Origin: Candidatus Aquabacterium excrementipullorum
GTDB taxonomy: Bacteria; Pseudomonadota; Gammaproteobacteria; Burkholderiales; Burkholderiaceae_C
Length of the DNA: 33,705 bases
Reading direction: 5' to 3'
Assembly: GCA_019112875.1 (NCBI GenBank)
Contig: DXIO01000056.1
Coordinates: 1-33,705, forward strand
The position numbers and the translations under genes are program-made. Of this stretch, positions 3,437 through 7,759 are shown piece after piece (positions within the stretch are counted from its first letter, which is position 1; the number at the start of each line of letters is the position of its first letter). A model generated the notes under the pieces. That model saw only the letters and a program-made list of their open reading frames with translations. It made no database searches and was not told where the DNA came from.

Positions 3437-4354
3437 TCAAACGAACCGATCCAGCCCCTGCACCAGCCGCTTCGCCAGACGCGGCTGCTTGAACTGCTCC
3501 AGCCACCAGGCCAGCGCCCTGCCCGTCTGGTCGCCCCGCCAGGCCACGTAGAGCGTGTTGGGCTCCCGCGGGTCGGCCATGCGTTTCTCGATCAGCGCCC
3601 CGCTGGCCAGCAAGCCCGCCACACGCTGCCTGGGCAGCCAGCCCACACCCAGCCCGTCGCGCTGCGCCAGGATCTTGGCGCGCATGCTCGGCACCGCCAG
3701 CACGGGCTGCCCGCCCAGCAGGCCATAGCCCCGCGCATCGGGCCGGCGCGATGAGTCGGCCACCACCACGCTGCGGTGCTGCACCACGGTCTCGCGCTCC
3801 AGCGGCTCGGCCGCCTTGGCCAGCGGGTGGCGCGGCGACACGGCGAACACCCAGTCCATCACGCCCAACTCGGCCCAGCGCAATTTCGGGATCGCAGGCG
3901 GCTCATTGGTCGCGCCCACCACCAGGTCGGCTCGTCCGTCGCGCAAGGCCTCCCAGGTACCGCCCAGCACCTCGTGCGTGATGCGCAGGCTCACGCCCGA
4001 TTCGAGCTTGTCGAACGACTGGATCACGGGCACCAGGGTGTCGAACTCCAGCACCTCGTCGGTGACGATCCACAGCCGGTCTTCCCAGCCGCCGGCCACC
4101 TGCTTGACCCGCCGGGTCAGCCGCGACACGTCCTGCATCAGGCGCGCGGCCTCTTGCGTCAGCAACTGCCCGGCCGGCGTGAGCTGCAGGCGGTAGCGCC
4201 GCCGGTCGAACAGCAGCGCATCGAACTTGGCCTCCAGCTGCCGCGCCGCGTGGGACACGGTCGATGGCGCCTTGCCCAGGCGCGCAGCCGCCCGCGACAG
4301 GCTGCCGCTCTCGTTGATGGCCTCCAGCAGCGCCAGATCCTCTTCCGACAACAT
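3437..4354 (-). CDS. LysR-type transcriptional regulator (divergent to SDR)
   Basis: A 305-residue LysR-family regulator. Residues 1-60 form the winged helix-turn-helix (LLEAINESGSLSRAAARLGK, then STVSHAARQLEAKFDALLFDR), followed by a linker helix and a periplasmic-binding-protein-like effector domain. The gene is transcribed away from a short-chain dehydrogenase and a hydrolase, the usual layout for a regulator and its targets, so these two genes are its inferred regulon. The 105-base divergent region contains a palindrome lying directly over this gene's own Shine-Dalgarno sequence (see 4355-4371), which suggests autoregulation. The ATG at 4354 is preceded by AAAGGA. The effector is unknown. 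Confidence 0.92.
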   Translation of the reverse strand: MLSEEDLALLEAINESGSLSRAAARLGKAPSTVSHAARQLEAKFDALLFDRRRYRLQLTPAGQLLTQEAARLMQDVSRLTRRVKQVAGGWEDRLWIVTDEVLEFDTLVPVIQSFDKLESGVSLRITHEVLGGTWEALRDGRADLVVGATNEPPAIPKLRWAELGVMDWVFAVSPRHPLAKAAEPLERETVVQHRSVVVADSSRRPDARGYGLLGGQPVLAVPSMRAKILAQRDGLGVGWLPRQRVAGLLASGALIEKRMADPREPNTLYVAWRGDQTGRALAWWLEQFKQPRLAKRLVQGLDRFV

Positions 4355-4371
4355 GTTCGATCCTTTCGAAC
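4355..4371 (-). promoter_or_regulatory. Inverted repeat over the LysR start: T-N11-A operator and/or SD-presenting hairpin
   Basis: GTTCGA (4355-4360) and TCGAAC (4366-4371) are a perfect 6-base inverted repeat around five bases, and contain a T-N11-A core (4357 to 4369) of the kind LysR proteins bind. On the minus strand the five central bases are AAGGA, the Shine-Dalgarno of the LysR gene, and the repeat ends immediately at its ATG. As RNA it would place the ribosome-binding site in the loop of a hairpin. Confidence 0.5.
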
Positions 4372-4459
4372 GAGTTCATCGGCGCCATGGTACGGCAAAT
4401 GGACTTGGCCCCGCCAATATTCATTCCACGGCAAGTCGCCGGATTCGAAGGAGATCACC

Positions 4460-5209
4460 ATGAACCGCTTCCAAACCAAGTCCATCCTCGTCACCGGCGG
4501 CAGCAGCGGCATCGGCCTGGCCGCAGCCCAGGCCTTCGCTCAGGAAGGTGCCCGCGTCGTCATCACCGGCCGCGACCAGGCCGCGCTGGACGACGCCGCC
4601 CGCCAGATCGGCCCCGGCACCATCGCCCTGCGCCATGACGCCGCCGACGTGGCCGGCGCCAAGGCCCTGGCCGCCACGCTGGTGCAGCAAGGCGTCACGC
4701 TCGATGCCGTCTTCATCAACGCCGGCGCCGCCCGTTTCGCCGCCTTCGCCGATGTCGACGAAGCCTTGTGGGACAGCACCTTCGGCACCAACGTCAAGGG
4801 CGCCTACTTCCAGATCCAGGCGCTGCTGCCGGTGCTCAACCGCGGCGCCTCCATCGTGCTCAACGGCTCGATCAACGCCCACATCGGCATGCCCAACTCG
4901 TCGGTGTACGCCGCCAGCAAGGCCGCGCTGATCTCGCTGGCCAAGACGCTCTCGGCCGAACTGCTGCCCCGGGGCGTGCGCGTGAACGTGCTCAGCCCCG
5001 GGCCGGTGAGCACGCCGCTGTACGGCAAGCTGGGCCTGGACGCCACCGCGCTGGAAGCCACCGCCGCGCAGATCCAGAGCCAGATCCCGCTGGGGCGCTT
5101 CGGCACGCCGGCAGAGATCGCCGCCACGGTGCTGCACCTGTCATCGCCCGAATCGGCCTTCATCGTCGGCACGGAAATCATCGCCGACGGCGGCATGAGC
5201 CAGCTCTGA
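4460..5209 (+). CDS. Short-chain dehydrogenase/reductase (classical SDR)
   Basis: A 249-residue NAD(P)-dependent oxidoreductase of the classical SDR family. The Rossmann motif TGGSSGIG is at 12-19, NAG at 87-89, and the catalytic tetrad is Asn111, Ser137, Tyr150 and Lys154. The C-terminus ends with the common IADGGMSQL. An Arg follows the second beta strand (TGRDQ, Arg38), which in this family usually favours NADP(H); that is an inference. AAGGAG lies seven bases before the ATG. The gene is divergent from a LysR regulator and followed after 59 bases by an exported alpha/beta hydrolase, so an inducible two-gene operon is likely. The substrate is unknown. Confidence 0.93.
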   Translation: MNRFQTKSILVTGGSSGIGLAAAQAFAQEGARVVITGRDQAALDDAARQIGPGTIALRHDAADVAGAKALAATLVQQGVTLDAVFINAGAARFAAFADVDEALWDSTFGTNVKGAYFQIQALLPVLNRGASIVLNGSINAHIGMPNSSVYAASKAALISLAKTLSAELLPRGVRVNVLSPGPVSTPLYGKLGLDATALEATAAQIQSQIPLGRFGTPAEIAATVLHLSSPESAFIVGTEIIADGGMSQL

Positions 5210-5268
5210 GCCGCCCGGCACCCTCGCCCACCACGTCCTTCACGTCCATCGCCTTTCAGGAGTCCACC

Positions 5269-6237
5269 ATGAACCCCTTCATCACGCGCCTGGCCCGTCC
5301 CCTGGCCGCCGCCATGCTCGCCAGCGTCACCAGCATCGCCCCGTTGCAAGCCAACGCGGCAGGATTCGCCACCAGTACCACCAACGCCACCACCATCCAG
5401 GAGCACACGGCCACCGCCAACGGCGTCAGGCTGCACTATCTGCAGGCCGGCACCGGAACCGACACCCCCATCGTCCTGCTGCACGGCTACGCCGAGACCA
5501 GCCGCATGTGGCGCCCGCTGATCACGCAACTGAGCGACCAGCACGCGGTCATCGCGCCCGATCTGCGCGGCGCTGGCGGTTCGGCCAAGCCCGCCTCCGG
5601 CTACGACAAGAAGACCCTGGCGCAGGACATCCACGCCCTGGTGCGCTCCCTGGGCCACAAGAAGGTGAAGATCGTCGGCCACGACATCGGCCTGATGGTG
5701 GCGTACGCCTACGCCGCCCAGTATCCGGACGAGGTCGAGAGCATCGTGCTGATGGACGCCTTCCTGCCCGGCGTGGGCGACTGGACCACTGTCTGGCTGT
5801 TGCGCGATCTGTGGCACTTCCATTTCCATGGCGAGGTGCCGCTCAAGCTGGTCGATGGCCGCGAGCGCATCTACTTCGAGCACTTCTGGAACGATTTCGC
5901 CGCCGATCCGAAGCACTCGGTGCCCGAGGCCGATCGCCAGTTCTACGCCGCGGCCTATGCGCAGCCCAGCGGCATGCGCGCCGGCTTCGAGTACTTCAAG
6001 GCCTTCGAGCAGGACGCCCGTGATTTCGCGGGCTTCGCCCAGACCAAGCTCACCATGCCCATGCTGGTGCTCGCCGGTGAAAAAGCCTCGGGTGACTTCC
6101 TGATCCAGCAAGGCCGCCTGGTCGCCACGCAGGTCGATGGCCGTGTCATCAAGGGCTCGGGCCACTGGTTGATGGAAGAAGCGCCGGGGCAAACCATCCC
6201 TGCGTTGGTCGAGTTCCTCAACCGCCCCGCGCGTTGA
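5269..6237 (+). CDS. Exported alpha/beta hydrolase with Asp nucleophile (epoxide hydrolase/dehalogenase-like)
   Basis: A 322-residue alpha/beta-hydrolase. Residues 1-31 read as a Sec signal peptide (basic start, hydrophobic core, probable cleavage after ANA near 30), so the enzyme should be periplasmic. The oxyanion segment HGYAET is at 72-77. The nucleophile elbow is GHDIG with Asp139 instead of the Ser of esterases, a feature of epoxide hydrolases and haloalkane/fluoroacetate dehalogenases. The catalytic His is His299 in GSGHWLMEEAPG. The cap domain lies between about 165 and 255 and is rich in aromatic residues. CAGGAG precedes the ATG. It follows an SDR gene and probably shares its LysR control. 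Epoxide hydrolase is the better guess because the arginine-rich dehalogenase motif after the nucleophile is absent. Confidence 0.85.
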   Translation: MNPFITRLARPLAAAMLASVTSIAPLQANAAGFATSTTNATTIQEHTATANGVRLHYLQAGTGTDTPIVLLHGYAETSRMWRPLITQLSDQHAVIAPDLRGAGGSAKPASGYDKKTLAQDIHALVRSLGHKKVKIVGHDIGLMVAYAYAAQYPDEVESIVLMDAFLPGVGDWTTVWLLRDLWHFHFHGEVPLKLVDGRERIYFEHFWNDFAADPKHSVPEADRQFYAAAYAQPSGMRAGFEYFKAFEQDARDFAGFAQTKLTMPMLVLAGEKASGDFLIQQGRLVATQVDGRVIKGSGHWLMEEAPGQTIPALVEFLNRPAR

Positions 6238-7188: not shown

Positions 7189-7218
7189 TTGACGGCAGAA
7201 CCGGCCCGCAGTTAGCAT
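7189..7218 (+). promoter_or_regulatory. Candidate sigma-70 promoter for the Trp leader
   Basis: TTGACG (7189-7194) matches five of six bases of a -35 box, and TAGCAT (7213-7218) matches four of six of a -10 box after an 18-base spacer. Transcription would start near 7225, right at the second leader-peptide ATG (7226). Confidence 0.5.
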
Positions 7219-7225
7219 GACTTCC

Positions 7226-7315
7226 ATGAACACCGCGTTCCAAGCACTCAACACCGCACAGACCGCCCAAGGCCTGTGGTGGCGCCGCCATGTCCCGGCG
7301 GCCTTGCGTGCCTGA
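7226..7315 (+). CDS. Leader peptide with tandem Trp codons (attenuator leader)
   Basis: A 29-codon open frame ends with TGA at 7313-7315 and carries two adjacent TGG codons at 7277-7282 (residues 18-19, in GLWWRR). The peptide has no other sign of function; tandem Trp codons in a short leader just before a terminator are the hallmark of ribosome-mediated Trp attenuation. I preferred the ATG at 7226 because the likely -10 element ends at 7218, which would make the transcript leaderless; an in-frame ATG at 7217 would add three residues. No good Shine-Dalgarno precedes either. Confidence 0.75.
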   Translation: MNTAFQALNTAQTAQGLWWRRHVPAALRA

Positions 7316-7367
7316 AGAACCACAGCGTTCGTTCACCACACCAGCCGCCCATCCAGGCGGCTTTTTC
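7284..7367 (+). promoter_or_regulatory. Tryptophan-type transcription attenuator
   Basis: Four complementary segments are visible. Segment 1 is GCCGCC at 7284-7289, directly after the Trp codons. Segment 2 is GGCGGC at 7297-7302. Segment 3 is GCCGCC at 7344-7349. Segment 4 is GGCGGC at 7356-7361. The 1:2 pairing gives a pause hairpin, 2:3 an antiterminator, and 3:4 (extended to AGCCGCC/GGCGGCT, 7343-7362) a terminator followed by TTTTT at 7362-7366. A ribosome stalled on the Trp codons would cover segment 1 and free segment 2. One that reaches the stop at 7313 would cover segment 2 and allow the terminator. The controlled gene begins at 7436. Confidence 0.82.
7343..7367 (+). terminator. Attenuator terminator hairpin (3:4)
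   Basis: A seven-base stem AGCCGCC/GGCGGCT with a six-base loop is followed by five T's. It ends 69 bases before the ATG of the chorismate-mutase-family gene and has no other gene end to serve except xth, whose stop is 184 bases upstream. Confidence 0.82.
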
Positions 7368-7435
7368 ATGCGTGTGCTCCTGCGATGGGCGGCTTCCAAG
7401 AGAAGTCCCAGCGATCCATCCCTCAGGAGCCCGAC

Positions 7436-7759
7436 ATGACCTTCACCCCCACCGCCCCCATCGTCGCCCAATGCGAGAGCCTGGACGAGGTGCGCATCCG
7501 CATCGACCAGGCCGACCGCCAGCTCGTGGCCCTGCTGGCCGAGCGTGCGCAGTACGTGCAGCAGGCCGCCCGCTTCAAGCGCAATGCACAAGAGGTGCAG
7601 GCACCTCAGCGCGTGCAGCAAGTGCTGGATCGCGCCCTGGCGCAGGCGCGCGACGTGGGCGCACCCACCGCCGTGGTCGAGGCCACCTACCGGGCCATGA
7701 TCGCCGCCTTCATCGAAGACGAAAGCCAGCACTTCGAACAACTGGCCGCTCACGCCTGA
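7436..7759 (+). CDS. Chorismate mutase-family protein (AroQ/PchB-like) under Trp attenuator
   Basis: A 107-residue all-helical protein of the AroQ chorismate-mutase superfamily, which includes PchB, the isochorismate pyruvate lyase that makes salicylate. Aligning by eye with E. coli P-protein and Pseudomonas PchB, the ligand-binding residues correspond to Arg20, Arg37, Lys48 and Arg59. The position of the catalytic Gln (E. coli Gln88, PchB Gln90) is Glu96 here. The segment YVQQAARFKRN through APQRV looks more like PchB than AroQ. The ATG at 7436 has AGGAG seven bases upstream; an earlier in-frame ATG at 7385 has no such site. It is a single-gene unit behind a Trp-codon attenuator, so expression should rise when charged tRNA-Trp is short. 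Which reaction it catalyses is not decided. Confidence 0.8.
   Translation: MTFTPTAPIVAQCESLDEVRIRIDQADRQLVALLAERAQYVQQAARFKRNAQEVQAPQRVQQVLDRALAQARDVGAPTAVVEATYRAMIAAFIEDESQHFEQLAAHA

Follow-up and report, generated by a model that had tools for sequence, protein, structure and literature searches.

An AroQ/PchB-like gene in the window (by which we mean the whole 33,705-nucleotide stretch analysed here) is very probably controlled by a tryptophan-responsive, ribosome-mediated attenuator and, to judge from its sequence context, forms part of a Trp regulon in Candidatus Aquabacterium excrementipullorum. The predicted attenuator is of the classic kind, with an unusual target in an unusual setting. 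That target gives the most valuable result: it belongs to a trp-linked group of AroQ proteins without a residue that most mutases use. A protein group that Pfam names 'chorismate mutase' is in this case tied to tryptophan synthesis by position, by fusion and by regulation. This raises a testable question, namely whether an AroQ protein is involved in the anthranilate synthase reaction.

The predicted attenuator and its promoter

The features from which the regulatory reading is built are as follows.

7189 to 7218, forward strand: likely promoter, with TTGACG (7189-7194), an 18-base spacer and TAGCAT (7213-7218); read from the sequence, with a predicted start site
7226 to 7315, forward strand: leader peptide ORF, MNTAFQALNTAQTAQGLWWRRHVPAALRA followed by its stop codon; probably leaderless, the predicted start site being at or next to the ATG
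7277 to 7282, forward strand: tandem Trp codons TGG TGG, read from the sequence; kept in 10/10 intact leaders of the window type
7284 to 7289, forward strand: segment 1, GCCGCC; partner of segment 2
7297 to 7302, forward strand: segment 2, GGCGGC; partner of segment 1 or segment 3
7313 to 7315, forward strand: leader stop codon TGA, 11 bases past segment 2
7343 to 7366, forward strand: intrinsic terminator, AGCCGCC-CATCCA-GGCGGCT plus a T-run (7362-7366); -13.6 kcal/mol by folding, with compensatory stem changes in relatives
7344 to 7349, forward strand: segment 3, GCCGCC; partner of segment 2 or segment 4
7356 to 7361, forward strand: segment 4, GGCGGC, read from the sequence
7436 to 7759, forward strand: AroQ/PchB-like gene of 107 amino acids, with AGGAG just upstream; assigned by profile and residue comparison

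In the proposed mechanism, scarcity of Trp-tRNA would stall the ribosome on the TGG TGG pair, where it would cover segment 1; with segment 1 covered, the 2:3 hairpin would form and the AroQ-like gene would be read. When Trp is sufficient, the ribosome would reach the stop codon and cover segment 2, the 3:4 hairpin would form, and transcription would end. RNA folding gave -12.4 kcal/mol for the 1:2 hairpin, -13.6 kcal/mol for the 3:4 terminator and -20.3 kcal/mol for the 2:3 hairpin, the last computed by masking segment 1 and leaving segment 4 untranscribed. Under that simulated stalling of the leader 2:3 forms fully, all six segment-2 bases being paired to segment 3. Equilibrium folding by itself leaves 2:3 versus 3:4 undecided, and the switch depends on folding order. 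All three hairpins that the initial annotation had proposed ahead of the T-run (pause, antiterminator and terminator, corresponding to 1:2, 2:3 and 3:4) do fold, and its coordinates for the attenuator proved correct to the base, including the spacing of the segments and the position of the stop. A search of Rfam with the window leader returned no match at E <= 1.

The TAGCAT box lies 7 bases 5' of the leader ATG, and a TANNNT box is found 6 to 9 bases 5' of the leader ATG in all ten loci of the window type described below (exactly 7 in eight of them). Because this -10-like box keeps a near-fixed distance, transcription is expected to start at the leader ATG, and the leader in the window is probably the beginning of a leaderless mRNA. 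A second in-frame ATG at 7217 overlaps the -10 box, and 7226 is therefore preferred as the leader start. The same box spacing precedes the ATG of the trpG leaders of the genus (n = 18; 16 at 7 bases and two at 6). Among family trpE leaders at 96 loci, in a tally where one locus may be counted more than once, the distances were 6 bases in 26 cases, 7 in 25, 8 in 28, 9 in 12 and 10 in 8. The initial annotation had named transcripts starting after 7367 as evidence that would speak against an attenuator; the likely promoter sits 5' of the leader instead.

Conservation of the attenuator in Aquabacterium

A protein search of 199 genomes, the window's own included, identified 34 with a related protein at E <= 1e-8, of which 13 belong to Aquabacterium. 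Ten of these 13 members are of the window type, the others being L031 (in genome G022), L032 (in G021) and the member in G041. When 42 Aquabacterium genomes were searched with a profile, 14 matched at E <= 1e-10: those with the ten and the three members just named, and G036, which has a fragment. The distribution of the gene in the genus is patchy, with matches in 14 of the 42 genomes and an intact gene of the window type in only ten.

A short TGGTGG leader precedes the gene at every one of the ten intact window-type loci. The leader frame, the Trp codons and the alternating pairings, to whose presence in related loci the initial annotation had tied its reading, are kept throughout, and the positions of the segments relative to the Trp codons are similar. 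Folding energies across these loci ranged from -7.5 to -12.4 kcal/mol for 1:2, from -12.2 to -14.8 kcal/mol for the terminator (with a T-run in 10/10) and from -13.2 to -26.4 kcal/mol for 2:3, the last pairing involving 6/6 segment-2 bases in nine loci and 5/6 in L015. An exact 6-mer test on segment 2 failed at L013 and L015, where the pairing is G.U or imperfect; folding at these two loci still gives 2:3, with 6/6 and 5/6 bases, respectively.

Compensatory changes, which had been predicted for relatives, were found in the terminator. With each sequence paired by its own stem, since the automatic alignment is one base off register there, one terminator pair reads A-U at four loci but U-A at the other six; a second is G-C in nine loci and A-U in one. 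The remaining stem positions are nearly invariant or differ by G.U. Because most stem positions hardly vary, support from covariation is limited to the two terminator pairs.

On an Aquabacterium soli contig (L003), the protein is 84% identical to that of the window and the leader is nearly identical. The immediate upstream neighbour at L005, L006 and L007 is an exonuclease-III-like gene, and L008 and L011 have another neighbourhood, with glycosyltransferase-like and polysaccharide genes (all named by eye), so that attenuator-bearing loci occur in at least two distinct gene neighbourhoods. In G036 (L060, minus strand, about 1840-1430) the leader and terminator look intact and the gene behind them has decayed to a short frame with an early end, in which the catalytic Arg and Lys positions are altered.

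Specificity of the leader and RNA searches

We scanned the window and 159 loci (1,478,544 bases over both strands) for leaders with paired Trp codons and a terminator behind them. Every one of the 21 hits fell at the AroQ-like gene; they represent 11 distinct loci, several of them more than once. Extended to 228 sequences (1,950,500 bases over both strands), the scan returned 31 hits, of which 30 were at the AroQ-like gene and the sole remaining one was the Trp leader of trpG in G027 (L201). The scanned sequences are enriched for aromatic and trp loci and in this are unlike a random genome.

We also built a covariance model, R1, from seven leaders. Across the 42 genus genomes it matched 16 places, nine of them at the AroQ-like gene (seven strong matches, together with weak but true ones in G036, E 5.1e-5, and G029, E 9.9e-4). 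Across 299 family genomes it matched five places, including a single strong one, at the AroQ-like gene. The model missed the window leader and G025. A plain terminator in G017 matched with E 1.7e-5, outscoring the true loci of G036 and G029, and R1 alone therefore does not tell terminators and the less strong true loci apart, a distinction that the leader ORF does allow. We considered whether the attenuator RNA might serve other genes as well, and rejected this: the 11 further R1 loci are mostly plain terminators and in some cases chance matches (such as L173-L175), and none of the 11 was positive in the leader and terminator scan, L168 being the G036 locus and set apart.

Trp leaders of trpE and trpG

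In the genome from which the window comes, trpE (C128:5439-6911) lies about 3.9 kb from trpG (C128:10780), with intervening genes that look unrelated. The trpE leader reads ..DRGAWPWRG.. (5182-5289 of L045, the locus on C128), and that of trpG, which is followed by trpD and trpC, reads ..NIRLFFGWWR (L045:10584-10637). Since trpE, trpGDC and the AroQ-like gene each have a separate Trp leader, we place the AroQ-like gene in a Trp regulon. The trp genes of this genome are in pieces, each piece has its Trp leader, and an unexpected AroQ-like gene is among them.

Both leader types extend beyond this genome. DRGAWPW stands before trpE in 29 of the 30 best TrpE loci from 383 genomes with TrpE, and because the AroQ gene is beside trpE in 0/30 of those loci, this leader is a trpE feature of the family. 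In these trpE leaders (L061-L090, L091-L157), residues beyond the Trp codons are conserved, which is unusual in an attenuator. A leader ending in WWR precedes trpG at 18 of the 30 genus loci read (L199-L227 included), from a genus in which 41/42 genomes have a trpG match. It was found in 9/11 genomes with the AroQ-like gene or its remnant, and none was seen before trpG in G025 and G020. At three of the 30 loci (L204, L212 and L215), trpE lies within 81 bases 5' of trpG. An Rfam search with five loci carrying trpE or trpG leaders gave no match.

Relatives in trp operons

A survey of 399 family genomes found 98 with a match at E <= 1e-14, in 99 places. Neighbourhoods were read for the 84 places at E <= 1.7e-30 and, from the 15 weaker ones, for L028 and L034, both of them lone genes. 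Of the 84 strong relatives, 69 lie directly behind trpE, and the other 15 consist of two Aquabacterium genes with the attenuator and 13 lone genes. The attenuator scan was negative at all 13 lone genes. When 20 lone loci were scanned more loosely, W-rich short frames appeared upstream of L029, L134 and L135, with a terminator behind none of the three.

The order trpE - AroQ gene - trpG is the operon order in most close relatives, and a W-x-W or WW leader stands before trpE in 54 of 57 trpE-adjacent loci, a further 12 loci being too short upstream. Fusions point in the same direction: the AroQ domain forms the C-terminus of TrpE in one genome (L019) and the N-terminus of TrpG in three genomes of one genus (L122, L132 and L139). 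The initial annotation had described the gene as lone and not a trp enzyme. It is indeed lone in the window; its close relatives are mostly trp-operon genes behind trpE, with fusions to TrpE and TrpG besides. In 13 of 18 further TrpE loci, trpG follows trpE closely and the AroQ gene is absent between them.

Two observations on lone genes stand apart from this pattern. L159 (in G502), one of the 13 lone genes, has a stop inside its AroQ-like match; downstream of it, at 3884-5284 or beyond, comes a member of the TrpE/isochorismate synthase superfamily (named by eye). L017, L134, L144, L150, L156 and L158 form a distinct lone AroQ-like group, close to which lies a gene for a Rieske-type aromatic ring hydroxylase, presumably resembling salicylate/anthranilate hydroxylases.

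We looked in TrpE itself for traces of a partnership. Loss of the lyase function of TrpE where the AroQ gene is present was rejected as an explanation: at the position of Salmonella TrpE His398, the TrpE of the window's genome has Ala, but so do the TrpE of two solved structures, 7bvd and 5cwa. Position 409, counted in the genome's own TrpE ORF frame (GAPK-x-HAM), is His in 62/62 recovered TrpE of the 69 with the gene beside trpE, and Arg in 28/30 other TrpE. Among 18 further TrpE from loci where trpE and trpG do not flank the gene, His is also found in 9 (no frame was recovered from a 19th); His409 therefore marks a clade of the family and was rejected as a signature of partnership.

Protein family and active site

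The window protein matches Pfam CM_2 with 69.8 bits, above the cut-off of 27. Its best NCBIfam model is isochorismate lyase NF005475, where 78.3 bits fall short of the cut-off of 126; for the chorismate mutase family protein model TIGR01803, the score was 51.9 bits against a cut-off of 73.35. The nearest solved structures by sequence are those of PchB. In the protein tree, a single supported branch unites the 11 trp-operon members; those of the attenuator type lie outside it and do not form one group, and the PchB-like genus proteins L031 and L032 are on a separate branch with PchB. A mobile origin was considered and rejected, blastn of plasmids and phages having given no match.

Active-site positions are given in the PchB numbering of PMC12329711. 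Arg15, Arg32, Lys43 and Arg54 are conserved in 99/99 loci, and the window protein has Val at position 55. At the equivalent of Glu52, which contacts the 4-OH in EcCM, the 79 trp-linked members (69 trpE-adjacent and 10 with the attenuator) have Ile in 67 cases, Val in 11, Ala in one and Glu in none; the mutase domain of the genome's own PheA, our control, has Glu there, and PchB has Val. A further 20 lone relatives have Gln (12), Val (5), Phe (2) or Arg (1) and again no Glu, so that loss of this residue reaches beyond the trp-linked group. Position 51 is the mutase-like Asp in 69/69 trpE-adjacent members, and in the attenuator type it is the PchB-like Ala (nine) or Ser (one).

The suspicion, voiced in the initial annotation, that the protein is no simple chorismate mutase gains support from the absence of the 4-OH-contacting Glu in 79/79 members. 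According to the accessible part of PMC12329711, about 80% of AroQ sequences have the Glu that touches the 4-OH of chorismate in EcCM, Val at this site does not alone create a lyase, and the secreted mutase of M. tuberculosis is efficient with Val there, another Glu substituting. Given these precedents, the missing Glu is a pointer and not a proof. Prephenate dehydratase was found in 42/42 gene-bearing genomes checked (10 Aquabacterium and 32 others), and since its ORFs have at least 362 codons, room enough for a mutase domain, a second mutase is not obviously needed. In the window's own genome, the mutase and dehydratase matches are neighbours on the same strand, and each is in a frame of 414 codons. 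Gene-bearing genomes probably have a housekeeping mutase as well.

Possible functions of the AroQ-like protein

We think that the product of the AroQ-like gene is tied to anthranilate synthase and serves the anthranilate side. The TrpE intermediate, 2-amino-2-deoxyisochorismate (ADIC), is akin to isochorismate but for an amino group at C2, and it lacks a 4-OH; a PchB-like pocket that is Trp-induced and linked to TrpE would have it within reach as a substrate. The most plausible such role, in our view, is that of a PchB-like lyase turning ADIC into anthranilate, though we hold it to be more doubtful than not. In its full form, which we offer tentatively, the proposal is that of a free-standing AroQ-fold ADIC lyase, yielding anthranilate and pyruvate, that is usually made with TrpE, at times as a fusion with TrpE or TrpG, and that in Aquabacterium stands alone, kept in the Trp regulon by a leaderless attenuator. 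If anthranilate were made from ADIC in this way, the Trp wiring would be sensible. To our knowledge, no separate ADIC lyase has been described. Against the proposal, TrpE performs this step itself and relatives manage without the AroQ gene; nothing in TrpE indicates that its lyase function is gone, so there is no missing step to fill.

A live alternative, albeit one that we still doubt, is a genuine chorismate mutase that is co-induced with anthranilate synthase under Trp starvation, so that Phe and Tyr synthesis can still draw on the common chorismate pool. It would account for the Pfam CM_2 match, for the Arg/Lys binding residues that are intact at all 99 loci and for the 69/84 strong relatives directly behind trpE. 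Predicted precedents for Trp control exist in TrpR over aroF-tyrA in Shewanella (available text of PMC5343134) and in the attenuated Desulfovibrio supraoperon with aroQ-pheA beside the trp operon (available text of PMC1173090), and the secreted M. tuberculosis mutase, as described in the accessible part of PMC12329711, works efficiently with Val in place of this Glu, another Glu substituting for it. A mutase has to be squared, however, with a 4-OH-contacting Glu that is missing in 79/79 members, with prephenate dehydratase ORFs long enough for a mutase domain in 42/42 genomes, and with wiring that would pull chorismate from Trp. The initial annotation had found this wiring backwards. The objection stands in so far as a mutase would drain chorismate; with most strong relatives behind trpE, the arrangement is less odd than it had appeared.

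The fusions to TrpE and TrpG and the adjacency to trpE would equally suit a non-catalytic partner of anthranilate synthase, acting as an allosteric or channelling subunit, and a complex between an AroQ protein and DAHP synthase is known (PMC4281200, in the part available). We regard such a partner as unlikely, the strict conservation of the ligand-binding Arg and Lys residues suggesting a working pocket, perhaps one used for sensing only.

Very unlikely, in our estimation, is a PchB-like isochorismate pyruvate lyase that makes salicylate. PchB does provide the closest solved structures, isochorismate lyase is the best NCBIfam model and Val occupies position 55; however, the 78.3 bits are far from the cut-off of 126, and L031 and L032, two PchB-like proteins from the same genus, sit with PchB on a branch of their own. 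A TIGR00564 (TrpE-family) search of the window's genome, moreover, found only TrpE and a PabB-PabC-like fusion, the latter named by eye.

That an ordinary terminator upstream of the gene happens to follow a chance ORF can be dismissed as highly improbable, for although terminators are common and make up most weak RNA-model matches elsewhere, the Trp codons, segments and spacing are kept in 10/10 loci with divergent flanks and the one scan hit beyond the AroQ-like gene is itself a Trp leader, of trpG.

Comparison with known systems

In the open literature, as covered by titles and the beginnings of abstracts, we found neither a Trp attenuator before a lone chorismate-mutase-like gene nor a trpE-CM-trpG operon, which is weak evidence of absence, subscription papers lying mostly outside this coverage. 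The attenuator of the E. coli trp operon (trpL) has tandem Trp codons, four segments, antiterminator and terminator hairpins and a T-run, and the window has its counterparts in Trp codons, four segments, alternative hairpins and a T-run. Unlike trpL, the predicted attenuator in the window governs a single AroQ-like gene and not trp enzymes, and it has no Rfam match.

The general principle of Trp attenuation is covered in PMC7298713, and the accessible part of that paper reports that the RNA of Sinorhizobium meliloti trpL (peTrpL/rnTrpL) starts with the trpL ATG and may be a leaderless mRNA. The arrangement predicted in the window is likewise leaderless. In S. meliloti the attenuator stands before trpE(G) only, whereas the genome studied here has separate Trp leaders for trpE, trpGDC and the AroQ-like gene. 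A further parallel is the Desulfovibrio vulgaris cluster aroA'-aroB'-aroQ.pheA-aroF-tyrA, which lies beside the trp operon and has a putative attenuator, the amino acid sensed not being stated in the available text (PMC1173090). Going by that text, D. vulgaris has a mutase-bearing gene in a putatively attenuated cluster next to trp genes, in parallel with the window; in D. vulgaris aroQ lies within PheA in a large supraoperon, whereas the window has a lone PchB-like AroQ gene.

At the level of the protein, the window product resembles PchB in belonging to the AroQ family, in keeping the Arg and Lys residues, and in having Val at position 55, Ala at 51 and an aromatic residue at 87. It differs from PchB in scoring below the family cut-off, in its Trp leader and trp linkage, and in having Glu versus Gln at position 91. 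With the AroQ chorismate mutases (EcCM and the PheA domain) it shares the sequence family and the Arg/Lys binding residues; in contrast to them, the trp-linked members have Ile, Val or Ala at the Glu52 equivalent in 79/79 cases. The M. tuberculosis complex of chorismate mutase and DAHP synthase, as presented in the accessible part of PMC4281200, likewise joins an AroQ protein to a shikimate-pathway enzyme, whereas the partner suggested here, from the fusions, would be anthranilate synthase.
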